Source: Bacteroides ovatus (GTDB taxonomy: Bacteria; Bacteroidota; Bacteroidia; Bacteroidales; Bacteroidaceae). From it: a stretch of DNA of 64,000 bases. Shown one piece after another: positions 12,032-44,963 of this stretch. Made by a program: the position numbers and the translations under genes. Under the pieces are notes generated by a model, which was given only the letters and a program-made list of their open reading frames with translations, searched no databases and was not told the DNA's origin. Each line of letters opens with the position of its first letter. Position 1 is the first letter of the stretch. The stretch covers positions 4,278,001-4,342,000 of the forward strand of contig NZ_CP012938.1 in the NCBI RefSeq assembly GCF_001314995.1, written 5' to 3'.

Positions 12032-12931
12032 TTATAGTTTCCTTAAACCTTTATCTTCTAAGTATTTGATTAATTCTTGGGGACGATCAGTTTGTATCAT
12101 AGTTGCCTTATGTTCCAGTATCCATCCCCAATGCTTATCTTTACCTTCTAATAGGGCGTTTTCGTCATCATGTCCACCGCATAGACTATCCCATAGAGTA
12201 TTCATCCATACCCGGCTACCAGATTGTACAATTTTATCAATAACCTTTAAATTTGAAGTCTGTTCGTCTTTGAAGCAGAGTTCATAGGCTATTGGCGTAA
12301 AGTCTTTAATAAAACTTTCGGTCGCTTTTATATCTTCTTCTTTCCATAAATGAATGATAGGCATATAGAGCATACTGGTATTGGTTCCATATTCCTCTTG
12401 AACTTTCTCGACAGGATACCTTCCTTTTATAATCACTTGTTTTTCCATTCCACATTTTCGAATGATGGGAAGAATCTCCTTTATATATGTTCCGCCTTTA
12501 TCTATATTGACCAGAATACGATCTTTACATGTCATTAACGCTTCTTCTAAAGTGGGTATGGATCGGCGGGTCTTTATACCGTTTCCACTTTTCAGCACAA
12601 ATTGTTTTAGTTCTGTTGTCGTATAGTTTTTAATGGCGCCTTTTCCTGTTGAAGTGCGGTCTAGCGTTGCGTCATGCATACAAATAAAGTTGTTGTCTTT
12701 GGTTTGCTGAATGTCAAGTTCAACCATGTCTGCTCCCATAGCGATGGCATTCTCTATACATTGTATGGAGTTCTCCGGAGCATTCCTCCAGTCGCCACGG
12801 TGAGCTATAACAAATACATATTGAGAATTCTTGTCGTGAAGATTCCTCAATAGTTTATCAATTCTGGATTCTGCTTCAGCAGATAATGAAACCAGAAGAA
12901 CTGATAATAGAAATATAATTTTCCTTGTCAT
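12032..12931 (-). CDS. Secreted glycerophosphodiester phosphodiesterase family protein (locus B, canonical motif)
   Basis: The 299-residue protein has a signal peptide (1-20, ending AEA) and one GDPD TIM-barrel domain. The canonical active-site residues are present: AHRG (His44, Arg45), APENS (Glu53), VELD (Glu71, Asp73) and MHD followed by LDRTS (His86). The later metal-ligand position reads VNIDK rather than E-I-K, as in a known GDPD subgroup. GDPDs hydrolyse glycerophosphodiesters to an alcohol and glycerol-3-phosphate using divalent metal. No lipobox is seen, so it is probably periplasmic. It is last in the sigma-controlled operon (22336 to 12032) and is closest in type to the GDPD at 41527. 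Confidence 0.88.
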   Translation of the reverse strand: MTRKIIFLLSVLLVSLSAEAESRIDKLLRNLHDKNSQYVFVIAHRGDWRNAPENSIQCIENAIAMGADMVELDIQQTKDNNFICMHDATLDRTSTGKGAIKNYTTTELKQFVLKSGNGIKTRRSIPTLEEALMTCKDRILVNIDKGGTYIKEILPIIRKCGMEKQVIIKGRYPVEKVQEEYGTNTSMLYMPIIHLWKEEDIKATESFIKDFTPIAYELCFKDEQTSNLKVIDKIVQSGSRVWMNTLWDSLCGGHDDENALLEGKDKHWGWILEHKATMIQTDRPQELIKYLEDKGLRKL

Positions 12932-12997
12932 ACGTGCTTTTCTTAAATAAAATGTTTTGATCTATATTGGGTACCTATGAAAAACTATCCTATAAAG

Positions 12998-13963
12998 TTA
13001 TCTTAATCCTTTTTCTTTTAAATAAGAGTTGACAAGATCAGAGTAATCAGTTTGCACAACTTCTATTTTGTTATCTATAAAAGTTTGAAGGTGCGAATAT
13101 TTACTATTCAGTAGATCGCTATCCCAATCTAAATGATTGGCATAACCTACTAACTTGGCATCTTTAATAGCTCCCATTAGTTCAGTGAGAGATGCATTGT
13201 CTATTCCGAATTGTACCATTTGTACTTTACTGTAATATTTGGCGAGGACTTTTACTTCTGCCGCAGTGGATACCCATGGAAAAGGAATGGCTCCAGGGTT
13301 AATAGTATTCATTTCTTCAATATATGATGTACTGGAACCAGTATAATAGCAAACCTGGTCGATCATCCCTTTTTCTGCAACCGTTTTAATGATTTTACCT
13401 AAAAGACCCTTCTCTTTTACATCGACACAAACATAGATTTTGCCTTTCGCAGCATCCAATACTTCCTCAAGTGTAGGCACTTTGTATTCAGTGATACCTT
13501 TAGAACCTTTTAAAAAATATTGATAAAGAGTTTGATAAGTCATATTGGCTACAGCACCAGTTCCGTTTGTTGTAGCATTAATGGTTGTATTGTGCATATT
13601 TACGATTACTCCGTCAGAAGTTGCTCTAGGGTCTATTTCAATCATATCGGCACCGACTTCTATTGCATATTGGATAGCGGGAATAGAATTTTCAGGAATT
13701 CCGTCACGTATTCCCTTATAGGTGTTGCTACGATGAGCGCAAGTCCACATTTTCAGACTTGTGTTGCTGGAAAGATTCTTTAAGTCGGTTGTTAAACTTT
13801 TAGTGTCAGGTTCTTCACCTGGGTCCTCCGGGTCTTCATTATCATCCGGAGGAGTCGGCTGATTTTTGTTTTCATATTCATCATTGGAAGAGCCGCAACT
13901 GGTACACATTACTTGCCCGGATACAAGTAAGATGATTGCCAAAAGAAAAAATACTTTCTTCAT
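12998..13963 (-). CDS. GDPD-family lipoprotein with altered active-site motif (locus B)
   Basis: The 321-residue protein has a lipoprotein signal (candidate Cys20 or Cys23), then an acidic Pro/Asp/Glu-rich linker (about 35-55) of the kind found in surface-exposed Bacteroides lipoproteins. A GDPD barrel follows. His77-Arg78 (AHR), Glu91 (PEN), Glu109 and Asp111 (EID) and His124 are present. However, the usual HD..LDRTT block reads HNTTINATT, so Asp becomes Asn125 and the Asp-Arg pair becomes Asn-Ala. The lipoprotein at 30900 has the same NATTNGTG ending. It may therefore be a distinct subfamily with a different substrate or weaker activity. It lies between the beta-propeller lipoprotein and the periplasmic GDPD. 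Confidence 0.85.
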   Translation of the reverse strand: MKKVFFLLAIILLVSGQVMCTSCGSSNDEYENKNQPTPPDDNEDPEDPGEEPDTKSLTTDLKNLSSNTSLKMWTCAHRSNTYKGIRDGIPENSIPAIQYAIEVGADMIEIDPRATSDGVIVNMHNTTINATTNGTGAVANMTYQTLYQYFLKGSKGITEYKVPTLEEVLDAAKGKIYVCVDVKEKGLLGKIIKTVAEKGMIDQVCYYTGSSTSYIEEMNTINPGAIPFPWVSTAAEVKVLAKYYSKVQMVQFGIDNASLTELMGAIKDAKLVGYANHLDWDSDLLNSKYSHLQTFIDNKIEVVQTDYSDLVNSYLKEKGLR

Positions 13964-13993
13964 AGTCTTTTTATTTTATTTATTAGATAATGT

Positions 13994-14021: not shown

Positions 14022-14033
14022 GTTTGATTTGAA

Positions 14034-15719
14034 TTATTTTACTGTAGCAGTGTGTTGAGCGTCTTTTGCACGCATCGGCCAGCCTGTTGTTGGTAATCCT
14101 TTCACATATTTGGATGACAGGGCCACTAATAAACTTTTCGATTCATCTTGGGTGTTAGTAATGGCCACATAGATAGTCCCGTCTGCATCCACTACCGGTG
14201 AACTCCAGAATTTGCCTTGTGTTGCAGCCCATTCGGATGCATAAGCACTTTCACTGTTAGCAATTGCTCCGGCCACATCAAGTACGGCAATAGCGTCAGT
14301 ACCATTTGCGTCAAGGATATAGAAATTACCACGTTCCGTACCGAACAAGATATGTCCATCCTTATCAATAACAGGAGTACTGCTAACACTTTCTGATATC
14401 TCATATTGCCATTTGATAGTTCCACCTGCTGACAATGCAACAATTCCGCCAGGCATATCTCCCTGACTTTTCAATGAGGCATATACAGTGCCATCTGTGC
14501 CGATAACGACTCCTCCCTGATCTTGTTTGCCGGTATTCTCAATAGGGGTAGTCCAACGTACACTACCGTCACTGGCAACGGAATAGATGGTAGTAGTCAG
14601 ATCAGATGTATAAATCATGCCATATACATTTCCTTCATTGTCTATGGCCATTGATGCATGACAGCCGCTGTTCAAACCACTGTCAAATGCTCTCCATGCC
14701 CATGGGCTGAAAGTATTGTCATCTTTAGCCATAGTAGCTTTTGCTACACCAAACATTCCGTAGTTGGTACACATGATATACATCATTCCTTGTTTGGAGA
14801 TAACAGGACCTGCATAAACACCTCCGGCAGGACCGCTGGTACCATCTGCGTTAGTTAAATAGCTAACACGGTTTCCTGTTGTTTTGTCTACCGCAATCAT
14901 TGAACCGGTGCTTCCCCCATTACCACAGTATACATATTTATCATCAAATGCTGGTGACACACTACGCATTTTGGCATTGGCGGCGTTACCTTTATTCCAA
15001 AAACCGGTAGTCGGATCATTGAAAGTAATCCATTTCTTATTTCCATCAGGATTGATAGCAAATAGTTTACCATTGCTTCCGTCACCTGTGCCAATGTAGA
15101 TTGTACCATCCGTATCTACAGACGGTGTCATGTTTGAGCCTCCTGTTGCCTGCGCTCCCCAAGATGGATCAGTCATGTCGAATGACCATTTTTCAATACC
15201 TGAAGTTACATCATAACTATGTAATATGTGGTCATTACTATTGATGTAAACCGTTTTTTCATCAGGAGAAAGAGCGGCGGAATTGGAAACTAACTTGGCT
15301 AAATGAGTGGAGGAGGTCCATAGTAATGTGAGGTCTCCTTTTTCTACTACTTTATCGGTAATTTCAATTGTTTTCCGGTAGAGGTTCGATCTTCCACTGC
15401 TGTCGGTTATGGTCAAACTAACAACAAATATACCTTTCTCATTGTACACGTGCTTCGGGCTTTCTTCGGTAGAAGTCGTTCCGTCCCCGAAATCCCATAC
15501 ATAAGTAAAGTTGCCACTACCTCCATAAGATGCGTTAGTGAATTGTATTTCACCTTCTATTTGCCCTCTTTCGGGAGCGATTGAGAAAGTTGCGGAAGGA
15601 ATATCTTTCCCGGCATTGTCTTCGTTGCTGCATGCGGCAAATAATAAAAGACAAACAATATATATGAACGGACATATCCGTACTTTATTTTTAATAGTTG
15701 TCATACACATAATAATCAT
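14034..15719 (-). CDS. PKD-domain, PQQ-type beta-propeller lipoprotein (locus B)
   Basis: The 561-residue protein has lipobox LFAAC (Cys30). A PKD domain follows (about 40-120; WDFGDGTTS and HVYNEKGIF are diagnostic), then a repeated beta-propeller with pyrroloquinoline-quinone-like repeats such as GTDGTVYA, IDKDGHILFGTE and VDADGTIYVA. No catalytic motif is evident. By position after SusC and SusD it is the likely surface glycan-binding protein of this locus, with the propeller as a binding platform. Starts at 15719, 15710 and 15704 are all possible; the longest is given. A phosphodiesterase or lyase activity of the propeller cannot be excluded. Confidence 0.85.
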   Translation of the reverse strand: MIIMCMTTIKNKVRICPFIYIVCLLLFAACSNEDNAGKDIPSATFSIAPERGQIEGEIQFTNASYGGSGNFTYVWDFGDGTTSTEESPKHVYNEKGIFVVSLTITDSSGRSNLYRKTIEITDKVVEKGDLTLLWTSSTHLAKLVSNSAALSPDEKTVYINSNDHILHSYDVTSGIEKWSFDMTDPSWGAQATGGSNMTPSVDTDGTIYIGTGDGSNGKLFAINPDGNKKWITFNDPTTGFWNKGNAANAKMRSVSPAFDDKYVYCGNGGSTGSMIAVDKTTGNRVSYLTNADGTSGPAGGVYAGPVISKQGMMYIMCTNYGMFGVAKATMAKDDNTFSPWAWRAFDSGLNSGCHASMAIDNEGNVYGMIYTSDLTTTIYSVASDGSVRWTTPIENTGKQDQGGVVIGTDGTVYASLKSQGDMPGGIVALSAGGTIKWQYEISESVSSTPVIDKDGHILFGTERGNFYILDANGTDAIAVLDVAGAIANSESAYASEWAATQGKFWSSPVVDADGTIYVAITNTQDESKSLLVALSSKYVKGLPTTGWPMRAKDAQHTATVK

Positions 15720-15733
15720 TTAAGGTTTTGTTA

Positions 15734-17128
15734 TTAATTTCCTGTATATCCCGCATATCCGGGATTTTGTGGGTAGGCTACCGTACCGGCCATGTCAATC
15801 TCATCTTGAGGGATCGGATAATACATCAGATAAGTACGACCATCAAGTGTTTCTAGCAATTCTAAGCGATTTGTACGTTTGATGTCCTGCCAGCGCATAC
15901 CTTCAGCATAAAATTCACGACGGCGTTCGTCCAAGATCAATGTCTGATATTCTTTGTCCGATAGAGCTTTGATTGCTGCTTCACTTGGAGCGGTAGTATA
16001 TCTTTTTTTCATATATTCCACTAATGCGGCGGCTCCGTTCGTTTTTCCGAGAGCTTCGGCTTTTACCAGATACATTTCTGAAATACGGGAGATTACTACC
16101 GGTGTGCAGGTATAATCTGACGTTTCCGCCAATTGATAAGTCCCATTCGGATATTTGATTACGCGGTTGGCATCTTGGCTGGTGAATGTGGCTTTTAACC
16201 GTACGTCTCCTTTGCGTGAAAGAGTATTATCATCAGCAAAAAGACTACTATAACACCAATCAGATGGAGCATAATTCCATGAACCGTCCGTGTCATTAAC
16301 GTATAATGTGAAGTTTAGAGGACTGGATGCTCTTGAATTATTAACATAGGCAAATATAATTTCCGGACTTGAACTTCCTGCAACCCAATTTTTAGAGAAA
16401 TCCATAGCGGTGGATGCGAGCGAGAAACTGGAATTAGCTAATACTGCTTCTGCATAGTTTGCAGCATCCGTCATCTTGTTCTGGAAAAGAGCTACACGTG
16501 CAGCAAGTGCATTTGCTGCGTCAGAAGATACGTACCATTTGGAATCTGCTTTTGACAGTAAGCGGATAGCTTTACCCAAATCTTCTTCGATGAATGTCCA
16601 TACTTCAGCTTCCGGAGAGATAGGAACCACCTCTTTTGAACGTTTACGCAGGATGGGGACATTTCCATAATGAGAGGCCAGACGATAATAAATAAATGCA
16701 CGGAAATAGTAAGAGACACCACCTACTTTTTTCATAAGAGCACTTTCTTTATTTTCGGAAGCTTCATAAGTTTCTACGAGAAAATTGACCTGATGCAATG
16801 TTGTAAATGAGTTTCTCCAAAAGGAGAGAATGTTAATTGCCTGATTGGTATACGAGGGAGACATTTCGCATGGGTCTGTAATTTGACCTCCTCCGGGACC
16901 TGCTTTGAAATTTTCCCCTTGTATATCATCCAACCACCAGAAAGTGAATGTATAATTTTCCATAGTGGCGTATACTCCATTTAATAGCTTTTCGAGATCA
17001 TCATCCGTCAAGGCTGATTGAGGAATTGCATGTCGGGGGCTGATGTCGTCCAGCCAGTCAGAACAGCTCGTGCCGAGTATAGTTATGGTCATTAAAACCA
17101 GAGTGAATAATAGTTTTATATTTTTCAT
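15734..17128 (-). CDS. SusD/RagB family outer-membrane lipoprotein (locus B)
   Basis: The 464-residue protein has lipobox LGTSC (Cys22) and the SusD family TPR scaffold. Conserved features include YYFRAFIYYRLASHYGNVPI, ISEMYLVKAEAL and the C-terminal ERRREFYAEGMRWQDIKR segment. SusD proteins cap the SusC channel and capture glycan on the cell surface. I prefer ATG 17128 over an upstream GTG at 17158, which would overlap the SusC gene. It follows SusC directly, 10 bases after its stop, and precedes the propeller lipoprotein, so the order SusC-SusD-accessory lipoprotein is standard for a polysaccharide utilisation locus. Confidence 0.94.
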   Translation of the reverse strand: MKNIKLLFTLVLMTITILGTSCSDWLDDISPRHAIPQSALTDDDLEKLLNGVYATMENYTFTFWWLDDIQGENFKAGPGGGQITDPCEMSPSYTNQAINILSFWRNSFTTLHQVNFLVETYEASENKESALMKKVGGVSYYFRAFIYYRLASHYGNVPILRKRSKEVVPISPEAEVWTFIEEDLGKAIRLLSKADSKWYVSSDAANALAARVALFQNKMTDAANYAEAVLANSSFSLASTAMDFSKNWVAGSSSPEIIFAYVNNSRASSPLNFTLYVNDTDGSWNYAPSDWCYSSLFADDNTLSRKGDVRLKATFTSQDANRVIKYPNGTYQLAETSDYTCTPVVISRISEMYLVKAEALGKTNGAAALVEYMKKRYTTAPSEAAIKALSDKEYQTLILDERRREFYAEGMRWQDIKRTNRLELLETLDGRTYLMYYPIPQDEIDMAGTVAYPQNPGYAGYTGN

Positions 17129-17138
17129 ATCGTTAGTT

Positions 17139-20100
17139 TTAGAAGTTAATGCTTGCACCTATGATAAAACTCTTTAATGTGGCTTGTTCTCCGAAATCTG
17201 CTCCGTAGCTGTTGCCTGTCGGATTACTTTCGTATGAGAATTCCGGATCATATCCGGAATATTTGGTCAGTGTAAAAAAGTTGTCGAGAGAAACAAAGAT
17301 GCGAGCTCCCGTTACATGTATTTTTGACAACAGAGAATGAGGAAGGCTATATCCCAATGTGATGGTTTTGAATTTGAAATAAGAAGCATCTTCCAGATAA
17401 CGGGTAGAAACAAGATTGTTTCCGAAACCGCCGGTGAACGTGCCTGCCAAAGTAGGGCGTGGAACAGTGTTGCTAGTTCCTTCTCCCCTCCAGTAATGGT
17501 TGGCGGCATATTTTGATATGTTATAGAATTGTTCCGAATCGACCAGTGTGCCATTTTTGTAACCTTTGATACTGCTGGACGCCAAGCCGAGATGTTCCGT
17601 ACCTTCTGTTCCCCCGCAGCCTTTCCATGCTGACAGGATTTTACCTCCGGCTGCAAATTGGCAGAAAATGGATAAGTCGAAGTTTTTCCAGTTCATAGTC
17701 GAAGTGATACCACCATAAATGTCAGGTGTAACCTTTCCTACATACATGCGGTCATCGTCTGTGATGTCTCCGTCATTGTTGTAGTCAAAGTACTTACAAT
17801 CACCAGCACGTACTCCTTTTGCGTAGAGTTTGCTTGGTACTTCCTGGTCGGTTTGATAAATACCATCCTGACGCAACATATAGAAAGCACTAACCGGTTT
17901 ACCTACCATTAAAGCATGCATTACTTTACCGGTATTGGCACCACCACCGTTGATTTTCATATCAAGTACTCCATCCAATGACAACAGTTTGTTTTTTGTA
18001 TAGGAGAGGTTAGTAGCAAGCTCCCATTTAAAAGGACCATCGAATATTTTACCGCTCACCATCACTTCCAATCCTTTGTTCTCCAGCGAGCCGATATTGG
18101 CTGTCCGGGTAGTATATCCTGTTGTAGCAAGAGTACTGATATTATAAAGTAATCCGCTTGTCTTTTGATAGTATCCGTCTACAGATAGCGCCAGTCGTCC
18201 GTTGAATAGCTCTGCGTTGATTCCGACATTCACCTGATTAGCTTTCTCCCAGATAAGATCCGCAGCATCTGCTCCGATTTTAAAACCGGATGAACCATTA
18301 TAGGAATTTCCTCCCGAAGTTACTAATGACATAGCTGCCCAGTTACTGATACCATCCATACTGCCAGTCTTACCCCAACTGGCTCGTAGCTTTAAGTCAT
18401 TCAGTGGCGTGCCTTTAGGGAAAAAAGGTTCGTTGATAATCCGCCACGCGAAAGAAGCAGAAGGAAATGTTCCATAACGTTTATCTTTTGAGAAACGTGA
18501 AGAACCGTCACGACGCATCGTTACATTTAAGATATAGCGATTATCCCAATTCAGGGCGGCACGTCCGAAATAAGATTCGAGTGCATATGCATTATATCCG
18601 ATACTACCTGCGTAGATGTTAGAACCGGAATTTATCAGACCGAAGCTGGAAGAAGGATAAGCACCGTTTGCGTAATTATCACTGTAAGCTCCAAAAGTTT
18701 CATAGTTATACTCTTCGTATGAGTGACCAAGCATGGCTGAATAAGTCAGTTTATCCCAACTATTTTCATACGAAATTACGTTGTCTATAACATATCGGTA
18801 ACTTACATTTTTCTGTTCGCTAAGTGCACCCCATCCTGCATTTTTGGAACGTGCGTCATGTTTCTCTGAAATTGTTTTCTTTTCTTCATCAAGAATACCG
18901 TATATGCTGAATGAGGGAGTGTATTTGAGTCCTTTGATAGGAGTAATATCAAAACTAAGGGCAGCTACTCCTTGTTTCTTATGTACAGTCCAGTCTTCTT
19001 CATTAATCAGCATAACGGGATTATGACGACATAATTCTGTTGACATCACTGTATAGCCTCCATCTTCCCGATAAGCTCCAATCCATGGTTGTTCTTCACG
19101 GGCAGTACGAATCACTTTCAAACTGGTAGATGACTCTTCCACTTTATCGAAACGGCTGTAAGATCCTGTGAGATTCAGATTCAGTTTAAACCATTTGTTC
19201 AGCTGATGAGTAAATTTTGCCCTTAGGTTGGTTTGCTGGAATCCGCTGGTACGGATGATACCTTGTTGGTCGTTAAATCCCACAGAGGTGAAAAAGGTAG
19301 TTTTCTCATTACCTCCCGAGAGATTGATAGATGCCATAGTAGAGTGTGCTATATCACGTTGAATGAGTCCGAGCCAGTCTGTTTCGGTAATCCGGTCGGG
19401 GATAAAGAATGATTTTGTGTCCTTCTTCTGCACATTCCAATTATCTACGGCTGCTTGCATAGTACGAGTATATTCTGCTACATTTGCCATTGGTATATCG
19501 TTGGCAATCCATCCAAGGCTGTGGCGTACACTGGCATTTACGCGTGTTTTACTGTTGGTGTTTCCCGATTTTGTGGTGATGATGACAACACCGTTGTTAG
19601 CTCGCGAACCATAGATGGCAGCAGCTGAAGCATCTTTCAATACGTCCATGCGTTCGATGTCGTTGGGGTTTAGCATAGGCATTGATTCACTGGGAACTCC
19701 ATCGACCACATACAATGGGGTGCTGTTACCTGTGATGGATGCAATACCGCGTACCCGTACACTCGGTTGTTCACCGGGGGTACCGCTGGCAGAGGCTACA
19801 TTTACACCAGGAGTACGACCTTGCAGCATTTTAGCTACATTGTAGTCACTGCCTTGGTCCAGATCATCCACTTTCAGGCTACTGATAGAAGTAGTTACTA
19901 GTTTTTCGGACTGGGAGCCATAGCCGACTACAACTATCTCATTTAATGCAATGCTACTTTCTTTCAAATATATTTTCAGATTGTTTTTATTGCCGGCTTT
20001 CACTTGTTGTGAGTCAAATCCAATATAAGATACTGTTAGTGGTTGGTTAGGATCTGCTACAATGGTAAAGTTTCCGTTAATATCTGTAATGACTCCGGTT

Positions 20101-20552
20101 CCTTTTCCTTGCATGACATTGGCGCCAATAATAGGAATTCCACTTTCATCTAGTACGGTTCCTTTAATCGCTCTCTTTTCATTACTTCTTTGTTCTGTCT
20201 CCTGCTTTACCAATACGATGGTGTTGTTGGTAAATGAATAAGATATATTCAAAGGAGTAAATACCTGTGAGAGCGCTTCGCTGATAGGTTTCTTTGTGCA
20301 GCTAATTGTCACTTTAGTCTGATCGTTAAGAACATGATTCCGGTATACAAAAGTATATCTCGTTTGCTGTTCTACTTGTTTCATGAAAGTTTTTACCGTG
20401 CCATTTTTGATATGAATGGACACATTTCCTTCTTGGGCAAACACTCCCGAAGGGAATAAAATTATAGCAGCGGATAAAATGGTAAAGTTTCTAAAAATAA
20501 GGCTGTTCCGCAGTTTCCTTCTCAATAAAAATGTTAACTTTGTGATATTCAT
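17139..20552 (-). CDS. SusC/RagA TonB-dependent transporter with STN domain (locus B)
   Basis: The 1137-residue protein has a signal peptide (cleavage near Ala39). An STN domain (about 46-115) follows, then a carboxypeptidase-regulatory-like beta-sandwich (GTVLDESGIPIIGANVMQ, about 130-205), the plug domain and a 22-strand barrel ending in aromatic Phe (ASINF). The STN domain is the part that signals to FecR-type anti-sigma factors, consistent with the sigma/FecR genes just upstream. The protein imports glycan with its SusD partner. ATG 20552 gives a normal signal peptide; the frame also has an ATG at 20594, directly after a strong hairpin. Confidence 0.94.
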   Translation of the reverse strand: MNITKLTFLLRRKLRNSLIFRNFTILSAAIILFPSGVFAQEGNVSIHIKNGTVKTFMKQVEQQTRYTFVYRNHVLNDQTKVTISCTKKPISEALSQVFTPLNISYSFTNNTIVLVKQETEQRSNEKRAIKGTVLDESGIPIIGANVMQGKGTGVITDINGNFTIVADPNQPLTVSYIGFDSQQVKAGNKNNLKIYLKESSIALNEIVVVGYGSQSEKLVTTSISSLKVDDLDQGSDYNVAKMLQGRTPGVNVASASGTPGEQPSVRVRGIASITGNSTPLYVVDGVPSESMPMLNPNDIERMDVLKDASAAAIYGSRANNGVVIITTKSGNTNSKTRVNASVRHSLGWIANDIPMANVAEYTRTMQAAVDNWNVQKKDTKSFFIPDRITETDWLGLIQRDIAHSTMASINLSGGNEKTTFFTSVGFNDQQGIIRTSGFQQTNLRAKFTHQLNKWFKLNLNLTGSYSRFDKVEESSTSLKVIRTAREEQPWIGAYREDGGYTVMSTELCRHNPVMLINEEDWTVHKKQGVAALSFDITPIKGLKYTPSFSIYGILDEEKKTISEKHDARSKNAGWGALSEQKNVSYRYVIDNVISYENSWDKLTYSAMLGHSYEEYNYETFGAYSDNYANGAYPSSSFGLINSGSNIYAGSIGYNAYALESYFGRAALNWDNRYILNVTMRRDGSSRFSKDKRYGTFPSASFAWRIINEPFFPKGTPLNDLKLRASWGKTGSMDGISNWAAMSLVTSGGNSYNGSSGFKIGADAADLIWEKANQVNVGINAELFNGRLALSVDGYYQKTSGLLYNISTLATTGYTTRTANIGSLENKGLEVMVSGKIFDGPFKWELATNLSYTKNKLLSLDGVLDMKINGGGANTGKVMHALMVGKPVSAFYMLRQDGIYQTDQEVPSKLYAKGVRAGDCKYFDYNNDGDITDDDRMYVGKVTPDIYGGITSTMNWKNFDLSIFCQFAAGGKILSAWKGCGGTEGTEHLGLASSSIKGYKNGTLVDSEQFYNISKYAANHYWRGEGTSNTVPRPTLAGTFTGGFGNNLVSTRYLEDASYFKFKTITLGYSLPHSLLSKIHVTGARIFVSLDNFFTLTKYSGYDPEFSYESNPTGNSYGADFGEQATLKSFIIGASINF

Positions 20553-20594
20553 AGTTGATAATGTTTTGATGTATAAAATTTTATCGACTTCCAT

Positions 20595-36944: not shown

Positions 36945-38396
36945 ATGAAAAATAGTTTATTCATAATATCGAAGCTATGTATGCTGGCTTTCATTCTCCT
37001 GTTGGCACAGGGATGCCAGGAAGACTATGAGATGATAGACCCGCCGCTGATGACCGACTACGACGATGATCTGGACGAAGAAGTGATTATGCAGAAAGGG
37101 CTGGAGAGTTACTTTGTGACTCAATTCGGTGAAGGTGAGATGGATGGTAGTTCCTGGGAACAGGCGTTGGATGTGGCTGGTTTCCGTAAGCTGTTGAGCG
37201 GTTCTGTCGATCTGTCCAAGAGTACGATTTACATGAGTCAGGGGAAATATGTCATGTCCGAAGAAAGTGGACTTGGTGTAATCGTTCGTAAGAATGTAAA
37301 GGCGATTAAGGGCGGATATAGTCAGTTTAGCGAAGGGACCGATGTTTCGGCACGTGATATAGATACATATGTGACTGTTATCAGCGGCGATGTGAACGGA
37401 AATAAACAGGCGGATGCCGGTGATTGTGGTTTGTTATTGGTGAAGAAAGGGCATATTACCATTGAGGGAGTTACTTTCCAATATGGATATGTTTCTGAAG
37501 CGGATGCCAGTACAACCGAATGTGGTAGTGGAATTTATGTGAGCGGCGGTGCCGGTGATACTTCCATCGAGTTGACCGACTGCGTGATTAGAGATTGTAC
37601 ATCAGGAGTAACGACTTCTGCCAAGCAGGGTGGTCCGGCAGTCTTTGTCTTGTCGGGACAGGTACGGCTGAATAATGTGAACTTGCTGGATAACACGGCT
37701 GTCGGTCGTGGAGGAGCTGTTCGTTGTAATAGCAAGACAGCGGTGGTGTTTATGAATGGTTGTCTGCTGAAAGGTAATTCTCATAACGGTTCGTGGGGAA
37801 ATGGTATTCAGATGTCGGAAGGACATATCTGTATTAACAATACCACGTTGATAGATAATATGGGGACAGGTGCCGCTTTGAACGGAGGAGGAAGTATCCT
37901 GCTGACCAATAATACAATCATTGGAAATACGAGCGATAGTCATGGAGCAGTACGTTGTGAGACAGGTGTCGGCGGTGATACGAAGTTTATTAATAACCTA
38001 TTGCTCTCTGAAAATCCTTCGGCTCCGAGCTTTAATCTGAACGGCAGCAATTTTGAAGCCTTTTCGAAGGGATATAATGTGTATCAGCGCGTGACGGGAA
38101 TAACGATGAGTGCGTCCGATACGGCTTATCCCAATCCGGTGAATGGTACGCTGGATGAAAAGGGAGTGTATGTGTGGGATCTTAATCAGATTGGTTCGGT
38201 AAAAGGATATGCTACCAAACAGGCGGTGATAGAAGTTGCGAAAAGTTTTAATCCGGTGGCTTCGCCTATTGCTAATTTGGGAGAAGTGTTTGTGGAATGG
38301 GTCGGTGAAGATGCTTTCGGTATAGACCAACGCGAAGTGACTCGTAATGCGAACAAGATGCAAGCCGGTGCTTATGATGCGGTTCTGACAAATTAA
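36945..38396 (+). CDS. Right-handed beta-helix lipoprotein, putative surface glycan-binding protein
   Basis: The 483-residue lipoprotein (lipobox LAQGC, Cys24) has an acidic N-terminal linker (DYDDDLDEE) typical of surface-exported Bacteroides lipoproteins. A parallel beta-helix (about 150-370) follows, with repeats such as IELTDCVIRDCTSG, VRLNNVNLLDNTAVGRGGAVRC and INNTTLIDNMG. Its helix and C-terminus (IDQREVTRNANKMQAGAYDA) closely resemble the C-terminal half of the protein at 39328. No lyase catalytic residues stand out, so binding is more likely than cleavage, although a polysaccharide lyase is possible. Confidence 0.82.
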   Translation: MKNSLFIISKLCMLAFILLLAQGCQEDYEMIDPPLMTDYDDDLDEEVIMQKGLESYFVTQFGEGEMDGSSWEQALDVAGFRKLLSGSVDLSKSTIYMSQGKYVMSEESGLGVIVRKNVKAIKGGYSQFSEGTDVSARDIDTYVTVISGDVNGNKQADAGDCGLLLVKKGHITIEGVTFQYGYVSEADASTTECGSGIYVSGGAGDTSIELTDCVIRDCTSGVTTSAKQGGPAVFVLSGQVRLNNVNLLDNTAVGRGGAVRCNSKTAVVFMNGCLLKGNSHNGSWGNGIQMSEGHICINNTTLIDNMGTGAALNGGGSILLTNNTIIGNTSDSHGAVRCETGVGGDTKFINNLLLSENPSAPSFNLNGSNFEAFSKGYNVYQRVTGITMSASDTAYPNPVNGTLDEKGVYVWDLNQIGSVKGYATKQAVIEVAKSFNPVASPIANLGEVFVEWVGEDAFGIDQREVTRNANKMQAGAYDAVLTN

Positions 38397-38415: not shown

Positions 38416-39309
38416 ATGAAGAAGATATTTTATATGATAGCTTTGGGTATCGGACTAGCCGGATGCTCAAACAACGAGGATGAGTTACTATCAATGGGCA
38501 GTTTCCCCGAAGATCATGTCATCCGCGTCATTACCGAAGTGAATGAACCTCTGTCACGTGCAGGGTATGACGCCATGAATCTGGAACGTTTCGGATTAAT
38601 GATCCGTAACAGCGAAAATGCTGCTTATAACTATCATAAACAAATGATTGGTTCCGGCAGTTCCTGGAGTACATCCGACGGTCAACAGATGCTTTGGGAT
38701 GCAGAAAGAACACCTGTGACGATGATAGCGTATGCGCCATTTATGAGTGAAGCTACTCCGGATGCTTCGTTGACGGTCAATGCGTTAACCAACCAGTCTA
38801 CCGAAGAAAATGTGAAATCCTCCGATTTCCTGTTGATGAAAGCAACAGTTGACCCGGAGCAGGATTTGACGGCGGATGGGAAACTGAAAATCTCTTTGAA
38901 TCATGCCATGAGCAAGCTGATTATAAAAATCACGGTCAATGGTACGACGGATGCTTCCATGAGTAAGTTAGGAGATATGGCCATCAATGGGGCTGTTGTC
39001 AATGCCACTTGTGATTTGTCGGCAGCGGCTCCGGTAGTTGTTCCTGCTGCGGATGCGGTAGTGGCAACTGTGGCTCCCTATAAAGGGACGGAATCCTGCG
39101 AATGTATCCTGCCTCCGCAAAAAATAGCAGAGGGTTTCTCTGTCAATTTCAGCTATGACGGGAAACTGTATATCTGGACTGCAAAAGAGGCCATTGAACT
39201 GGAGAAGGGCGTGGAACATACCTTAACTCTCAATGTAAACACAACAGTCCGACTGGCTGCTAAGGTGGCCAGAAATTGGGCAACCGGGCAACTTATCGAC
39301 CGGAATTAA
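38416..39309 (+). CDS. Fimbrillin-like lipoprotein (Mfa-like family)
   Basis: The 297-residue lipoprotein (lipobox LAGC, Cys17) has the fimbrillin-family pattern: VIRVITEVNEPLSRAGYD near the start, WDAERTPVTMIAYAPF, the central LKISLNHAMSKLIIKI and a C-terminal LEKGVEHTLTLNVNTT. Bacteroides fimbrillins form cell-surface fibres, but copies embedded in utilisation loci may serve as glycan-binding proteins. It lies 19 bases after the beta-helix gene and 18 bases before the fusion gene, so it is part of the same operon. Confidence 0.83.
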   Translation: MKKIFYMIALGIGLAGCSNNEDELLSMGSFPEDHVIRVITEVNEPLSRAGYDAMNLERFGLMIRNSENAAYNYHKQMIGSGSSWSTSDGQQMLWDAERTPVTMIAYAPFMSEATPDASLTVNALTNQSTEENVKSSDFLLMKATVDPEQDLTADGKLKISLNHAMSKLIIKITVNGTTDASMSKLGDMAINGAVVNATCDLSAAAPVVVPAADAVVATVAPYKGTESCECILPPQKIAEGFSVNFSYDGKLYIWTAKEAIELEKGVEHTLTLNVNTTVRLAAKVARNWATGQLIDRN

Positions 39310-39327: not shown

Positions 39328-41478
39328 ATGAAGATTACAAAACTGATATTGGCTGCGTATCTACTAATGAGTATGGCGGCTTGTGATACGGATAAAAATA
39401 TAGCTGTATACGGTGAAGATTCCGGTGCTATTCAGATTGAAGCCGCTATTAATACTGCCTTTACCCGCAGTAATCCCGGTGCGGCGGGAGATCAGCAGAA
39501 ACAATTTAATGAGGGTGATGAAATTCAGTTAAGTTGTGAGGATGGGTATCTGAATTATGTACTTGCCGGAGGAAAATGGGTGCCGACCGATAACTATTAT
39601 TTGAGATGGGGTGCAGAGCCGGTGACTTATTCGGCTTTCTATCCAGTGGTAAGTGGAGCCAGTACGACTAATTTTACGCTTCCCACGAATCAGCAACGTC
39701 TCGAAAATCTGGCTAAAGCAGATTATATGACGTGTACTGTGGAGAATGCAACAGACGATGGTTCCCGTATTCTTCGTTTGGGCATGAACCGGAAAATGGC
39801 AAAAGTAATCATGACGCTTGCAGATGTAGGCGGACAAGGTAAGGTGCAGGGGGTAAAGATCGGTTCTTATCAGGGATATACGAATGGCGAAGTGGTATCG
39901 GGTACTTCTTTGATATCGCCGTTCATTACAGTTCCCGAAGGTGGTAAGGCAGGACAGAACGGTTGCACTTATACTGCCATCGTAGCCCCCGGAAAAGCCG
40001 GGACAACCGATACGTTTGTCTCCTTGAATTATTTGGGAGAAGATTTGGTATTACCCGGTATCCCGGAATTGAAGCCCGCAAAGTGTTATGAATTCACGCT
40101 GAAAGTGGAAGGTTCGATTATAACCATTAGTGAACCCATTGTTTCTCCGTGGGATAGCGGTACTTTGCCGGGAGGAGATGCGGAAGAATTGCAGCTTGCG
40201 GCTTACTACGTAAAAGAACAGCCTGCCGGAAACGCAACCGGTATGGATTGGGATAATGCAATGGGAGTGGATGCGCTGCGCAACTTATTACAGACGAATG
40301 GTAACAGCGACATTTCCAACGCTAATGCAGTCAAACTGGATGGCAAGAAGATTTATGTAGCTGCAGGCTCTTATGAGATGGCGAAAGAAAATTCCGGCGT
40401 GAAGATAGAATATAGCGGTTATAGCAAGCAAGTGGAAATAACGATTGAAGGCGGATATGATCCTTCAAGTACGGGAACGGACTTGACTAAGCGTGACGTT
40501 CGTAAATATACGACTGCTTTTGTCAGAAATAGCGGCAGTGGAGCGTCAGCAACATCCAACTCTTTATTAGTGCTGGGTAATCAGACAAATATTATTTTCG
40601 ACGGTTGTACTTTCAACGGACAATATGGATTGAGCGATGCAGGAAGTGTCCGTGCCGTATTTGTTGCGGCAGGTGGAGGTGATGCAACCCTGCAACTGAA
40701 TAATTGTGTCATCAAGAACTTCAATCGCGGAAGCGATGGTGGAACAGATGGTGGAGCAGCCGTTAAAGTATCAAAGGGAAGAGTCCTGCTAAATGATGTA
40801 GAGATGGTGAATAACAAGGCGACAGGGCGGGGAGGAGCCATCACTACCACCGCAGCAAACAGCTTCCTGTTTATGAATAATTGCTTGTTACATGAGAATT
40901 ATGCACCGACCGCTTGGGGAACTGCCATTCATGCCGGAAATGGATATGTCTGTATGAATAATGTAACCGTACTTGGTACCACCGCTACCGGAGGAAATAG
41001 TATCACAGTCAATGGAGATGCCTATTTTATGCTTGCCAATACTACCATTGTTGGAAATTCAGGTAATCCGAACGGTGTCTTCCGTGCAGGGAAGAATGCT
41101 TCCCTGGTGGTCAACTCTTTATTTGCCAAAGGAGCCGGAAACAGGACGATTTATGCAGGTAATATCACTTCCGGAGGATACAATGTCTATCAGGCGGCGG
41201 ATGCAGGTTGGGGAGCTGTTGCTACAGACACAGACTATTCATCCCAAACTCTTCCCGCTGCAACTTTGACCGATGGTGTTTACCAATGGACGGTAACCGG
41301 TACTATTGATGAATTTGCGACGAAGCAGGCTGTGATTGATGCGGTGAAATCTTTCGATGCAACTGTGGGACAGCAATTTATCAATTGGGTGGGCGAGAAC
41401 GGCTTTGGAGTAGACCAACGAGGAGTTGCCCGTAATGTCAACAAGATGCAGGCTGGTGCTTATGATGCCGGGTTGTAG
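39328..41478 (+). CDS. Fimbrillin / beta-helix fusion lipoprotein
   Basis: The 716-residue lipoprotein (lipobox MAAC, Cys19) has an N-terminal fimbrillin-like domain (about 25-280; AINTAFTRSNPG, WGAEPVTYSAFYPV, LRLGMNRKMAKVIMTL) fused to a right-handed beta-helix domain (about 285-716). The second part parallels the separate protein at 36945: WDNAMGVDALRNLL against WEQALDVAGFRKLL, GRGGAITT against GRGGAVRC, and NKMQAGAYDA at both ends. Thus the two preceding genes appear here as a single polypeptide, which supports their working together. It is probably surface exposed. No enzyme motif is seen. Confidence 0.83.
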   Translation: MKITKLILAAYLLMSMAACDTDKNIAVYGEDSGAIQIEAAINTAFTRSNPGAAGDQQKQFNEGDEIQLSCEDGYLNYVLAGGKWVPTDNYYLRWGAEPVTYSAFYPVVSGASTTNFTLPTNQQRLENLAKADYMTCTVENATDDGSRILRLGMNRKMAKVIMTLADVGGQGKVQGVKIGSYQGYTNGEVVSGTSLISPFITVPEGGKAGQNGCTYTAIVAPGKAGTTDTFVSLNYLGEDLVLPGIPELKPAKCYEFTLKVEGSIITISEPIVSPWDSGTLPGGDAEELQLAAYYVKEQPAGNATGMDWDNAMGVDALRNLLQTNGNSDISNANAVKLDGKKIYVAAGSYEMAKENSGVKIEYSGYSKQVEITIEGGYDPSSTGTDLTKRDVRKYTTAFVRNSGSGASATSNSLLVLGNQTNIIFDGCTFNGQYGLSDAGSVRAVFVAAGGGDATLQLNNCVIKNFNRGSDGGTDGGAAVKVSKGRVLLNDVEMVNNKATGRGGAITTTAANSFLFMNNCLLHENYAPTAWGTAIHAGNGYVCMNNVTVLGTTATGGNSITVNGDAYFMLANTTIVGNSGNPNGVFRAGKNASLVVNSLFAKGAGNRTIYAGNITSGGYNVYQAADAGWGAVATDTDYSSQTLPAATLTDGVYQWTVTGTIDEFATKQAVIDAVKSFDATVGQQFINWVGENGFGVDQRGVARNVNKMQAGAYDAGL

Positions 41479-41526: not shown

Positions 41527-42438
41527 ATGATAGATATGAAGAAAAGCAAGTTTATAGTGCTTTTGTTACTTTTCTGTTTGCAGCCAGGTTTCCTGGCTGC
41601 ACAACGGGCGGAGGCCATCCGCAAGGATGTATTGAATCCGCACCTGGATAAAGTATTGGTGGTGGCGCACCGTGGAAATTGGAGTATTGCCCCCGAAAAC
41701 TCCCTGGCGGCTATTGATAGTGCTATTCGGATGAAAGTGGACATTGTAGAGATTGATATCCGTAAGACGAAAGACGGTCAGCTGGTGCTGATGCATGATG
41801 ATACGGTAGATCGCACCACCAATGGTACAGGAAAAGTGAAAGATAAGACATTGGCTGAAATAAAGCAACTTCGGTTGAAAGATAAAGACGGCCGTCTGAC
41901 GGAACATACGGTTCCTACTTTGGAAGAAGCTTTGCTGGCTGCCAAAGGCCAGATAATGGTTAACCTGGATAAGGCTTACAGTATTTTTGATGATGTGTAT
42001 GTTATATTGAAGAAAACCGATACTGCCGATTTAGTGATAATGAAAGGTGCTCAACCGGTGGAGACCGTGAAGCGGGAGTTCGGCTCTTATCTGGATAAGG
42101 TAATCTATATGCCCGTCGTAACGATTGATGAGGAGAAATCGATGAAGGTAGTCGAGGACTATATGGAACAGTTGCATCCGGTTGCTTTTGAGTTGTGTTA
42201 CCGGAATGTATCAAGTCCGGTACCTGCCCGGATGGAACGCAGGCTGGCAGGGAAAAGCCTGATCTGGTATAACACTTTGTGGGCTTCTCTGGCAGGAGGG
42301 CATGATGATGAGGCTGCCAGGAAAGACCCGGATGCAAGCTATGGGTATCTGATAAACAAGTTGGGAGCAAGAATCCTCCAAACAGATAGTCCGGCTTTTA
42401 TGCTCGATTATTTGAGAAGTAAAGGATGGCATGACTAA
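41527..42438 (+). CDS. Secreted glycerophosphodiester phosphodiesterase family protein (locus C, canonical motif)
   Basis: The 303-residue protein has a signal peptide (ending near LAAQ) and a GDPD barrel with full canonical residues: VAHRG (His48, Arg49), APENS (Glu57), VEIDIRKTKDG (Glu75, Asp77) and MHDDTVDRTTNGTG (His90, Asp91). NLDK occupies the later metal-ligand position, as in the 12032 protein, which it resembles closely (AHRG.W..APENS; ELCF/ELCY; TLW.SL.GGHDDE). No lipobox is seen, so it is likely periplasmic. Starts at 41527 and 41536 are both possible. It follows the surface lipoproteins and precedes GH20 by 17 bases. Confidence 0.89.
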   Translation: MIDMKKSKFIVLLLLFCLQPGFLAAQRAEAIRKDVLNPHLDKVLVVAHRGNWSIAPENSLAAIDSAIRMKVDIVEIDIRKTKDGQLVLMHDDTVDRTTNGTGKVKDKTLAEIKQLRLKDKDGRLTEHTVPTLEEALLAAKGQIMVNLDKAYSIFDDVYVILKKTDTADLVIMKGAQPVETVKREFGSYLDKVIYMPVVTIDEEKSMKVVEDYMEQLHPVAFELCYRNVSSPVPARMERRLAGKSLIWYNTLWASLAGGHDDEAARKDPDASYGYLINKLGARILQTDSPAFMLDYLRSKGWHD

Positions 42439-42455
42439 TCACTAAGACTAAATTT

Positions 42456-44963
42456 ATGAACGATATAAAGTTTTCTTTATGGGCAGCGGGATGGTTGCTC
42501 ATCCTGCTCCTTGCAGGCAGTTGTAAGTCAGCAAATGAATCGAGAGCTCCGGTTGCTTTAACCTGGGAAATGGGAAGCTACGATGGGAATGGTAAATATT
42601 ATGAGAATTCTTTTGTATTGAAGAATGTTTCGGATGCTCCTATAGGAAAGGATTGGGAGATTTATTATTCGCAGTTTCCCCGTTCGATCCGGCAGGATGC
42701 TTCGTCACCGGTTAGGGTAGAGGAAGTAAATGCGACCCTTTTTAAAATATATCCGGGAGAAGGATTTATTTCACTGGCTCCGGGAGATTCATTGAAAGTG
42801 ATATTCCAGTGTGACGGAGAAGTGCCGAAGAATTCACATGCACCCGAAGGGAGTTATTGGGTCAGTCAGTCGGGGGCGTTGAAAGGTAAGCCGCTGCCTG
42901 TGACGTTGCATACCATTCCATTGCCTGTTACGGAATGGCAAAAGACGGCCGCACGGAAGACGTACGAAACCAACCTTCGTTTACTGAATGTGGAAACTCC
43001 GGAGTTCCGGACGACGGATATCATACCTTCCGTAAAGAAGGTGCTTGCTACCGGAGGAGAAACGGTGTTGGAGAAACAACTATCTTTGACTTTCCATGAA
43101 GATTTTGCCAATGAAGGAAAACTGTTGAAAGAGAAGCTCACCGCATGGTATGGATTGGAAGTTGTGTCGGAAGCACCGGTTACCATTGTCATGGATTATC
43201 TCTCTGACAGGAAAAAGGCAGTCAATGAGGAATATTATGAACTGTGCATTGACGGTCAGCAGATCAGGATTAGTGCCGCTACTCCACATGGAGTTTTTAA
43301 TGGTACACAGACTTTGTTAGGATTGCTGAAAGGGCAGGAAAGCCCGTTCCGGTTGGAAGCAATGTCTATACAGGATTATCCGGACTTATTATATCGGGGA
43401 CAGATGCTCGATATTGCCCGAAATTATACAACGGTGGATAACTTAAAGAAGCTGATTGATATGCTCTCTTCTTACAAACTGAATGTGCTCCAGTTCCATT
43501 TCTCAGATGATGAAGGCTGGCGGTTGGAAATTCCGGGATTGGAGGAGTTGACTGCAATCGGATCGCGGCGGGGACATACAACCGATGAAAAAGACTGGCT
43601 GTATCCGGCTTATGATGGTGGATATGATCCGTATGCCGCAACATCAGGAAATGGTTATTATACCCGGGAGGAATTTATTGATTTATTACGATATGCGGCG
43701 GAAAGACATGTGCAGGTAATCCCGGAAATAGAATCCCCCGGTCATGCACGTGCGGCGATTGTGGCAATGAATGTACGTTATAAGAAATACATCGATACCG
43801 ATCCGGAGAAAGCGAAAGAATATCTTTTGAGTGACTTGCAGGATACTTCCCGATATGTTTCGGCACAAGCCTATACGGATAACGTTATGAATGTAGCCTT
43901 GCCCTCCACTTATCGTTTTATGGAAAAGGTGATTCAGGAAATAGTGGCTATGTATAAGGAAGCCGGTGCACCGTTGACTACCATTCATTTGGGAGGTGAT
44001 GAAGTGGCTAAGGGTGCATGGATGGGATCTCCTTTATGCAGGGCGTTAATGGAAGAGCAAGGCATGGAAAAGGCGCATGACCTGGCCGAATATTTCATTA
44101 CCCGGGTAGTTGATTGCCTGCAACAGCATCATTTGTCTTTTAATGGCTGGCAGGAAGTAGCTTTGGGGCATCAGAAAGACACTCATGCTTATTTATCCCA
44201 ACGGGCAGCCGGTATCAATTCATGGAAGACTGTTCCGGAATGGAAAGAGGATGAGATTCCTTATCAGATAGCCAATAACGGTTATCCGGTCATTCTCTGC
44301 AATGTGAATAATTTCTATCTGGATTTGGCTTATGATGCTCATCCCGATGAACCGGGACATTTCTGGGGAGGATATGTGGATGAATCCAAAGCATTCTCCA
44401 TGCTTCCGTTCGATGTCTATCGTTCCTCACGTACGGATATGGCAGGCAATCCGGTGGAAATCAGTTCCGTGGGAAAAGGAAAAACGACATTGACCGCATC
44501 CGGCAGGAAACAAATAAAAGGGGTACAGGCACAATTGTTTGCCGAAACAATTCGAGGATTTCAATGGGTAGAATATTATACATTCCCTAAAGTGATGGGA
44601 TTGGTAGAACGTGGCTGGAATGCGCATCCGGAATGGGAAACCCTTTCCGGTGCAATGGAGCAGCAAGCCTTTGACCGCGATCTGGCACTGTTCTATGAAA
44701 AAATCAGTGTAAAGGAAATGCCTTGCTGGAGCCGGATGGGGATAAACTTCCGTTTGCCTCATCCCGGACTCTCCATTCAGGATGGACTTCTGTACGCGAA
44801 TACTTCTATCGAAGGAGCACAGATACGCTATACGACGGATGGGACTGAACCGACGGTTGATTCGGAATTATGGGAGACTCCTGTAGCCTGTCAGTCTGCG
44901 GTTGTAAAAGCAAAACTGTTTTATAGGGATAAGCAAAGTGTGACTAGCTGTTATTGGCAGTAA
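42456..44963 (+). CDS. GH20 beta-N-acetylhexosaminidase lipoprotein
   Basis: The 835-residue lipoprotein (lipobox LAGSC, Cys23) has four regions. An N-terminal cellulose/chitobiase-binding-like domain (about 33-155) is followed by a GH20b-like domain (about 185-305) and the GH20 catalytic barrel (about 310-680), with the substrate-assisted Asp-Glu pair at 515-516 in HLGGDEV and FHFSDDEGWRLEIPG. A chitobiase C-terminal domain ends the protein (about 760-835; IRYTTDGTEPT). It removes terminal beta-linked GlcNAc or GalNAc. Together with two GDPD proteins this implies a substrate with both amino-sugar and glycerophosphodiester groups. It is the last gene of the locus C operon. Confidence 0.92.
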   Translation: MNDIKFSLWAAGWLLILLLAGSCKSANESRAPVALTWEMGSYDGNGKYYENSFVLKNVSDAPIGKDWEIYYSQFPRSIRQDASSPVRVEEVNATLFKIYPGEGFISLAPGDSLKVIFQCDGEVPKNSHAPEGSYWVSQSGALKGKPLPVTLHTIPLPVTEWQKTAARKTYETNLRLLNVETPEFRTTDIIPSVKKVLATGGETVLEKQLSLTFHEDFANEGKLLKEKLTAWYGLEVVSEAPVTIVMDYLSDRKKAVNEEYYELCIDGQQIRISAATPHGVFNGTQTLLGLLKGQESPFRLEAMSIQDYPDLLYRGQMLDIARNYTTVDNLKKLIDMLSSYKLNVLQFHFSDDEGWRLEIPGLEELTAIGSRRGHTTDEKDWLYPAYDGGYDPYAATSGNGYYTREEFIDLLRYAAERHVQVIPEIESPGHARAAIVAMNVRYKKYIDTDPEKAKEYLLSDLQDTSRYVSAQAYTDNVMNVALPSTYRFMEKVIQEIVAMYKEAGAPLTTIHLGGDEVAKGAWMGSPLCRALMEEQGMEKAHDLAEYFITRVVDCLQQHHLSFNGWQEVALGHQKDTHAYLSQRAAGINSWKTVPEWKEDEIPYQIANNGYPVILCNVNNFYLDLAYDAHPDEPGHFWGGYVDESKAFSMLPFDVYRSSRTDMAGNPVEISSVGKGKTTLTASGRKQIKGVQAQLFAETIRGFQWVEYYTFPKVMGLVERGWNAHPEWETLSGAMEQQAFDRDLALFYEKISVKEMPCWSRMGINFRLPHPGLSIQDGLLYANTSIEGAQIRYTTDGTEPTVDSELWETPVACQSAVVKAKLFYRDKQSVTSCYWQ

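Follow-up and report, generated by a model that had tools for sequence, protein, structure and literature searches.

Paired glycerophosphodiester phosphodiesterases beside SusCD in two loci of Bacteroides ovatus: candidate uptake systems for glycerophosphodiester-containing molecules

The window analyzed here is a stretch of 64,000 nucleotides of Bacteroides ovatus (bases 4278001-4342000; the genome is one contig with a length of 6,472,489 bases). It contains two gene clusters, locus B and locus C, in which SusC-like and SusD-like proteins (SusCD) are encoded together with two glycerophosphodiester phosphodiesterases (GDPDs), one a lipoprotein and the other with a plain signal peptide. Pfam scans of both loci agreed with a preliminary description of this DNA in the genes, their coordinates and the presence of SusC, SusD and the two types of GDPD in each locus.

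Locus B is encoded on the minus strand. Its regulatory genes specify an ECF sigma factor (21770-22336; PF04542, PF08281) and a FecR-type anti-sigma factor (20679-21389; PF04773, PF16344). The latter is the 3' part of a frame (20679-21620, translated from 21620) that has an in-frame TAA after residue 66. The open FecR frame has 236 amino acids, against 319 in a sister locus of the same genome (L001), and locus B may be regulated differently in this strain. There follow a SusC-like TonB-dependent transporter with an STN domain (17139-20594; PF07715, PF13715, PF07660), a SusD-like lipoprotein (15734-17158; PF07980, PF14322), a lipoprotein with a PKD domain and a PQQ-type beta-propeller (14034-15719; PF18911, PF13360), a lipoprotein GDPD that is probably a surface enzyme (12998-13963; PF03009, E 1.1e-18), and a putatively periplasmic (SPI) GDPD with a DUF4996 domain (12032-12931; PF03009, E 8.5e-25; PF16387, E 5.6e-35). 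This last enzyme keeps H, R, EN, ExD, H, and D, and its nearest solved structure is 3i10 (E 2.3e-70). The Pfam scan found no glycosidase in the locus B operon.

Locus C lies on the plus strand and begins with a DUF6377 regulator (29032-30681; PF19904, E 2.3e-87), so the regulators of the two loci are unrelated, as had been stated. It continues with a second probable surface GDPD, a lipoprotein (30900-32072; PF03009, E 1.2e-26; lipoprotein-class alignment A3) whose longest frame begins at TTG 30792, a SusC-like transporter (32104-35100; PF07715, PF00593), a SusD-like lipoprotein (35114-36889; PF07980, PF14322), a right-handed beta-helix lipoprotein (36945-38396; PF13229; model pLDDT 89.7), a fimbrillin-like lipoprotein (38416-39309; PF13149, E 8.6e-32) and a large one (39328-41478; PF13149, E 5.4e-17), a putatively periplasmic (SPI) GDPD with DUF4996 (41527-42438; PF03009, PF16387), and a GH20 beta-hexosaminidase lipoprotein (42456-44963; PF00728, E 2.9e-84; PDB 9joq, 1qba). 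The model of the beta-helix protein had weak structural matches to lyase- or esterase-type beta-helices (best E 1.2e-4, TM-scores to 0.54), which gave no clue to a substrate, and the large fimbrillin-like protein had no PDB sequence match. A PKD-containing surface protein had been claimed for both loci. This is right for locus B, where it is a separate protein, but in locus C the PKD match is marginal (PF00801, 25.0 bits vs. a cut-off of 23.5) and sits in the GDPD lipoprotein itself. Both loci have the make-up of Sus-type loci: SusC and SusD are adjacent, and genes for a regulator and for a lipoprotein and a periplasmic enzyme are linked to them. In both, as in PusCD systems, SusCD is co-located with phosphodiesterases as judged by family, not by activity.

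The catalytic positions of the GDPDs are intact. Numbered as in the locus B lipoprotein, residues H77, R78, E91, N92, E109, D111, H124, and D181 do not vary among the seven GDPDs from the four GDPD-SusCD loci of the genome, and the catalytic and metal set H-R, E-N, E-x-D, H is also kept in ten members of the lipoprotein class. All seven have an invariant Asp at the site of the usual Glu, a position that we take to be the third metal ligand. The AlphaFold model of the locus B lipoprotein GDPD (pLDDT 90.5) has a TIM-barrel GDPD fold; its best structural matches included 3i10, 3mz2, 4oec, and Bacillus subtilis GlpQ with bound glycerol 3-phosphate (5t9b, E 6.9e-17). The structure 3i10, from B. thetaiotaomicron, is close to the DUF4996 GDPD of locus C (E 2e-126); it is titled only GDPD or putative GDPD in the structure entries, as are 3mz2 and 3no3, both from P. 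distasonis. The block NATTNGTG had been read as distinguishing the surface class. It differs from the standard H-D-x-T-[ILV]-[DN]-R-T-T block in having A for R, whereas the genome's third lipoprotein GDPD, in L001, keeps R (DRTTTGKG), which rules out NATTNGTG as a class-defining block.

Acidic residues follow the lipid cysteine in the lipoprotein GDPDs of locus B (C-GSSNDE), locus C (C-SDDDP), and L001 (C-GDDST), and the PKD-propeller protein of locus B has C-SNEDN. Such residues presumably mark surface export in Bacteroides. A crude lipobox rule predicted lipoproteins for 12 of 14 lipoprotein-class GDPDs and for all 24 propeller proteins; among 143 DUF4996-type proteins it gave 109 plain signal peptides, 29 lipoproteins, and 5 with neither. 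These counts come from overlapping sets of loci, and the locus C lipoprotein GDPD is one of the two that were missed; a stricter rule missed both lipoprotein GDPDs of the window. The signals are weak evidence that the lipoprotein GDPDs lie on the surface and the DUF4996 GDPDs in the periplasm.

All four DUF4996 GDPDs and all three lipoprotein-class GDPDs of this genome are within SusCD loci. The genome has 120 SusD genes, and the stretches up to 6.5 kb away from them make up 22.7% of it; seven of its eight GDPDs fall in these stretches. Under random placement the probability of at least seven of eight being so placed is 1.9e-4, and that of at least three neighboring GDPD pairs within 12 kb is 9e-5; both values are only indicative, since the two distances were set after the real ones were known. 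The association of GDPDs with SusCD exceeds chance.

Two of these loci are outside the window. L001 (G000:C1:6414000-6433900) encodes an ECF sigma factor, FecR, an AAA-ATPase gene, SusC, SusD, a PKD-GDPD lipoprotein, a PKD-propeller protein, a DUF4996 GDPD, and a transporter of the major facilitator superfamily (MFS). L002 (112000-131000) encodes SusC, SusD, a propeller protein, a TIM-barrel protein, a lipoprotein of metallo-beta-lactamase fold that had no PDB sequence match, a DUF4996 GDPD, and an MFS transporter. Each of these sister loci ends in the transporter, directly behind the DUF4996 GDPD, and the two transporters are 95% identical. Their closest solved relative is Escherichia coli GlpT (1pw4, E 3e-50). 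The scores are under every NCBIfam cut-off (for the GlpT equivalog TIGR00712, 213.5 and 205.2 vs. 632.55 bits), and for this reason we call them GlpT-like, not GlpT. Among the loci collected, 36 transporters (31 distinct) with more than 350 bits and more than 380 residues were compared. All of them keep residues Y38, Y42, R45, K80, H165, Y266, and R269, which we take to be the substrate-site positions of GlpT in its own numbering. The aligned glucose-6-phosphate exchanger SLC37A4 has Met at His165 and Lys at Arg269. By this resemblance they are organophosphate transporters, and within that group glycerol 3-phosphate is their putative substrate.

With the L001 transporter as query, 22 genes were found in 20 of 199 genomes of the family (E up to 1e-60), and 18 of them were at most 0.8 kb from a DUF4996 match. 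Of the four without such a neighbor, three are the most distant from the query (53-54% identity) and one is 65% identical to it; as the query is a cassette member, nearer matches are favored.

The same 199 genomes gave 57 matches to PF16387, and 46 of the genomes had DUF4996 GDPDs. Every match outside the B. ovatus genome, save a 59-residue frame in G134, was assigned to one of 48 loci (L004-L051). Directons were defined by gaps of less than 400 bases, and contig ends counted as misses. By this rule 26 of the 48 loci had SusC and SusD in the same directon, accompanied by the transporter in 15 of the 26 and by a lipoprotein GDPD in six. In a second set, of 80 named loci (the best of 544 confirmed among the 600 stretches listed), SusCD was present in 51 loci, of which 13 had the transporter and four a lipoprotein GDPD. 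The two sets overlap, and the ranking of the second by similarity to cassette members biases its share upward. SusCD-bearing loci occurred in Bacteroides, Phocaeicola, Segatella, Pedobacter, Mucilaginibacter, Hymenobacter, and Aquimarina, among others; a contig of a KSB1 metagenome-assembled genome had a partial transporter frame, and no SusD was called on it.

A profile of the lipoprotein class detected 11 genes above 260 bits in eight of the 199 genomes, so the pairing of the two GDPDs is rare. Each of the 11 was at most 10.1 kb from a DUF4996 match, in one SusCD locus with the DUF4996 GDPD, and no lipoprotein-class GDPD was found outside such loci in these genomes; the next matches (186 bits or less) were DUF4996 or other GDPDs. 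The two types thus recur together beside SusCD in all 11 cases, as the preliminary description had predicted. Nine of the 11 had served as seeds for the profile, nine of whose ten rows are from these genomes, and the new ones are in G197 and, as a fusion, in G161. As detection and place of the seeds were given by construction, the weight of this test lies in the absence of members elsewhere.

The constant part of the cassette is SusCD and the DUF4996 GDPD, often with the transporter. Beside the DUF4996 GDPD there is a variable slot, which may hold a protein of metallo-beta-lactamase fold, a PhoD-like, Exo_endo_phos, HAD, or DUF218 protein, GH92, or a second or fused GDPD; some of the metallo-beta-lactamase-fold matches were just below the Pfam cut-off, and unlabeled genes of the relatives were scanned in part. 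In an uncultured Aquimarina (L106), PhoD is located between the propeller protein and the GDPD-transporter pair. In L016 a single protein of 843 residues contains a propeller related to that of locus B, PKD, and GDPD and replaces two separate genes. Four more genomes have frames of 847 residues, scanned for their GDPD part, at almost the same spacing from the next GDPD (866-885 bases). GH20 was found behind the DUF4996 GDPD in all four loci of the locus C type (the window, L006, L013, and L032). GH92, possibly for phosphodiester-linked mannans, adjoins the DUF4996 GDPD in L094, L100, L113, and L124 (three Mucilaginibacter, one Sphingobacteriaceae). In B. stercorirosoris (L053, 3318-6514), two tandem proteins of about 530 amino acids have GDPD matches of 40-42 bits, in a locus that also has a lipoprotein GDPD, a DUF4996 GDPD, and the transporter.

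The history of the loci was traced in a SusD tree, which held 55 of 87 cassette-labeled SusDs and 59 of the 116 other SusDs of the genome. The label was given to SusDs that share the strand of a DUF4996 GDPD and are no more than 12 kb from it, and a few may therefore be chance neighbors. The draw of the others was not random, and the SusD of the GH30 locus in the window entered twice. The cassette label required 10 changes on the tree, at least five of them forced by well supported branches (quick method), against a mean of 38.7 with shuffled labels; none of 500 shuffles was as low. The main clade (support 96) contains 42 cassette rows, including L001 and L002, and one background row. The latter (L179) belongs to an alginate-lyase locus: no phosphodiesterase was found among the five neighboring proteins scanned (of L192), which are two of the alginate-lyase family, a TIG-domain protein, one with a weak TIG match, and an oxidoreductase. 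The main clade is therefore not exclusive to GDPD loci. Cassette SusDs that fall elsewhere, apart from one another, include that of locus B together with L016, that of locus C together with L006, and a group of L009, L012, and L109. Loci B and C are not two copies of one system: with their SusDs on different branches, a duplicated cassette is rejected. The combination of SusCD with a GDPD probably arose more than once.

Among the SusDs sampled, the closest to that of locus B is in L194 (G000:C1:1799000-1818900; support 82, long branches), which has ECF, FecR, SusC, SusD, and two calcineurin-like phosphoesterases and is reminiscent of Flavobacterium PUSI. The closest to that of locus C (support 99) is in L193 (G000:C1:3524000-3543900), where SusC-SusD is accompanied by two proteins of the ADP-ribosylglycohydrolase family and a PfkB kinase, perhaps a locus for the uptake of ADP-ribose or nucleosides.

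Other genes of the window were also recorded. Beside locus B there is an SGNH esterase, a possible accessory, on the plus strand (10822-11925; PF14606, PF14607), which matches PDB 4lhs with 770.8 bits over all 343 residues of the chain and has a relative in the GH20 locus L006 (12621-13706). AAA-ATPase_like/PDDEXK_9 genes are in or beside three of the four GDPD-SusCD loci (window 9246-10814; L001 3363-4922; L002 11176-12741); they looked linked to these loci, but the genome has 20 copies. At 45087-57455 there is a locus with a DUF6377 regulator, SusC, SusD, GH30, a DUF5016/5125/5121 protein, and GH3, which resembles, we believe, the beta-1,6-glucan locus of B. thetaiotaomicron. Alpha-mannan-type enzymes (GH125 and GH76) are encoded at 1132-5628 with another DUF6377 regulator.

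The gene content, the intact catalytic residues, the recurrence of the GDPD pair, and the linkage to GlpT-like transporters, all read from sequence, suggest for loci B and C an uptake of glycerophosphodiester-containing molecules across the outer membrane in which enzymes of two compartments act as a relay. We give this reading a probability of roughly 0.58. The surface lipoprotein GDPD would cut phosphodiester bonds outside the cell, with help from binding proteins of the PKD/propeller or beta-helix kind and, in the case of locus C, from GH20. SusD would then capture the fragments and SusC import them, after which the DUF4996 GDPD would free glycerol 3-phosphate in the periplasm. The GlpT-like transporter of the sister loci would move this product into the cytoplasm, and loci B and C would presumably share it. 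A relay had been proposed before, for a glycan substrate. As a hypothesis the relay is a good one, and it gains strength from the GlpT-like transporter as a last step in the sister loci and from the reciprocal tests with the transporter and the lipoprotein class. A glycan substrate was not supported: only locus C has a glycosidase and the relatives carry phosphatase-type, metallo-beta-lactamase-fold, PhoD, or GH92 proteins. The substrate is the least certain part. The likeliest class is glycerol-phosphate polymers of Gram-positive walls or glycerophosphate-decorated glycans, and teichoic acid, lipid head groups, and glycan decorations are possible. By analogy with B. subtilis GlpQ, which is impeded by teichoic acid substituents, GH20 could remove hexosamine substituents in locus C.

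Several observations weigh against a relay. In the family sample, SusCD was missing from the directon of the DUF4996 GDPD in 22 of the 48 loci, so this enzyme is not tied to SusCD in every genus, and the two-GDPD form is a minority (6/26; 4/51 in the best 80 of 544). A genome search revealed no close copy of the L001 transporter in the window; the sole further match was 21% identical (E 2.5e-4). The L001 transporter scored higher with the PgtP-type (260.6 bits) and UhpC-type (248.8) models than with GlpT (213.5), all below their cut-offs, so another organophosphate is possible. The SusDs of loci B and C, being outside the main clade, may bind other ligands, and the fimbrillin-like and beta-helix proteins of locus C have no assigned role. 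The literature searched yielded neither expression nor activity data on these genes.

A wider version of the relay can be put forward only tentatively. It would be a widespread, recurrently assembled means by which Bacteroidota forage on glycerol-phosphate polymers that other bacteria make: teichoic acid of Gram-positive neighbors would be cut at the surface by a phosphodiesterase (a GDPD; PhoD or a metallo-beta-lactamase-fold enzyme in other genera), SusCD would import the pieces, the DUF4996 GDPD would trim them to glycerol 3-phosphate, and dedicated GlpT-like uptake would follow, with loci B and C as separate recruitments and GH20 removing hexosamine decorations in C. Somewhat more doubtful is the idea that the loci scavenge phosphorus or lipid head groups as gut counterparts of the Flavobacterium PusCD loci, importing deacylated phospholipid head groups or other organophosphates and not polymers. 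In the part of the source covered, PusCD loci likewise encode phosphodiesterases and phosphatases beside SusCD, and phosphate depletion induces them (PMC8115612). Other cassettes have metallo-beta-lactamase-fold, PhoD-like, HAD, and Exo_endo_phos proteins, and the SusD closest to that of locus B adjoins the two calcineurin-like phosphoesterases of L194, but this sister relation has moderate support on long branches. Small head groups should need neither a surface cut nor SusCD, and GH20 in locus C and GH92 in other loci point to sugars.

Those same glycosidases, GH20 after the DUF4996 GDPD in every locus of the C type and GH92 adjoining the GDPD in four further loci, would fit ordinary use of glycans with glycerophosphate side groups, in which the GDPDs strip decorations so that glycosidases can work. 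This we consider unlikely, given the locus B operon without a glycosidase (some may be missed among the partly scanned genes of the relatives) and the GlpT-like transporter of the two sister loci, which suggests that the nutrient is the phosphate product itself. It is highly improbable that the GDPD-fold proteins have drifted to another chemistry, such as a phosphodiester lyase with a cyclic phosphate product or action on a non-phosphate substrate. The Asp at the presumed third metal ligand would allow it, as would the C-terminal half, where there is DUF4996 or no match at all (the PF03009 match stops after about 100-140 of 244 positions), but the other catalytic positions are invariant and the fold matches are GDPDs, including GlpQ with bound glycerol 3-phosphate. 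A chance neighborhood, with GDPDs near SusCD merely because a genome with 120 SusD genes has so many such loci, can practically be dismissed: the placement probabilities, even with distances picked post hoc, and the recurrence across genera contradict it.

If the relay is real, cell-wall polymers or membrane head groups from neighbors, the host, or the diet could supply a common gut genus with carbon and phosphorus through a Sus-type pathway that glycan-centered annotation misses, and DUF4996 would gain a role. The paired GDPDs and the transporter of the relatives suggest an overlooked route for eating glycerophosphate-containing molecules, for example teichoic acids or lipid head groups. One genome offers four concrete loci, and SusCD, the DUF4996 GDPD, and the GlpT-like transporter form a searchable gene set.

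No paper describing the SusCD-GDPD cassette or DUF4996 was found in the literature searched, which largely excludes subscription journals and preprints, and the terms phosphodiester, glycerophosph, and teichoic are absent from the main text of PMC3243724. In the excerpt seen of one iron-response table, BT4724-25 (TonB receptor, SusD) and BT4727 (GDPD) of B. thetaiotaomicron appear together with no function given, so the arrangement exists in that species (PMC10434189). A partial view of another study places a GDPD in an upregulated putative polysaccharide utilization locus of Flavobacterium IR1 (PMC12758843). Sus-type polysaccharide utilization loci have, as here, SusC, SusD, a surface lipoprotein enzyme, a periplasmic enzyme, and a linked regulator, but here the main enzymes are phosphodiesterases, and the locus B operon has no glycosidase. 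In the GlpQ-GlpT route of E. coli for glycerophosphodiesters, a periplasmic GDPD is followed by GlpT-type uptake; unlike the proposed relay, this route is not known to have a surface enzyme or a TonB-dependent importer.

According to the part of the source covered, B. subtilis GlpQ strips glycerol phosphate stepwise (exolytically) from wall teichoic acid and is impeded by substituents, and PhoD is an endolytic teichoicase that cuts even glycosylated polymer internally (PMC7086022). There too a GDPD yields glycerol 3-phosphate, and L106 likewise pairs PhoD with a GDPD, but as far as that source goes the B. subtilis enzymes turn over the cell's own wall, with no outer membrane and no SusCD.

The known systems nearest in kind to loci B and C are the PusCD loci of Flavobacterium johnsoniae (PUSI-IV). 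For this comparison we take PF13653 to be the GDPD_2 family. The PhoA1 protein of PUSII carries PF13653, so on that assumption a GDPD-like domain beside SusCD is already in print (PMC8115612, in part). The portion of that article covered contains no PF03009 enzyme, no same-fold pair of surface and periplasmic enzymes, and no mention of a glycerol-3-phosphate transporter (0 matches for GlpT or glycerol-3-phosphate). It shows induction of PUS by phosphate depletion. The same portion gives PUSII a FecR-type regulator, as in locus B, and in PUSI-IV, like here, SusCD stands next to phosphodiesterases or a phosphatase (periplasmic there), an arrangement proposed to import organic phosphorus (PMC8115612).

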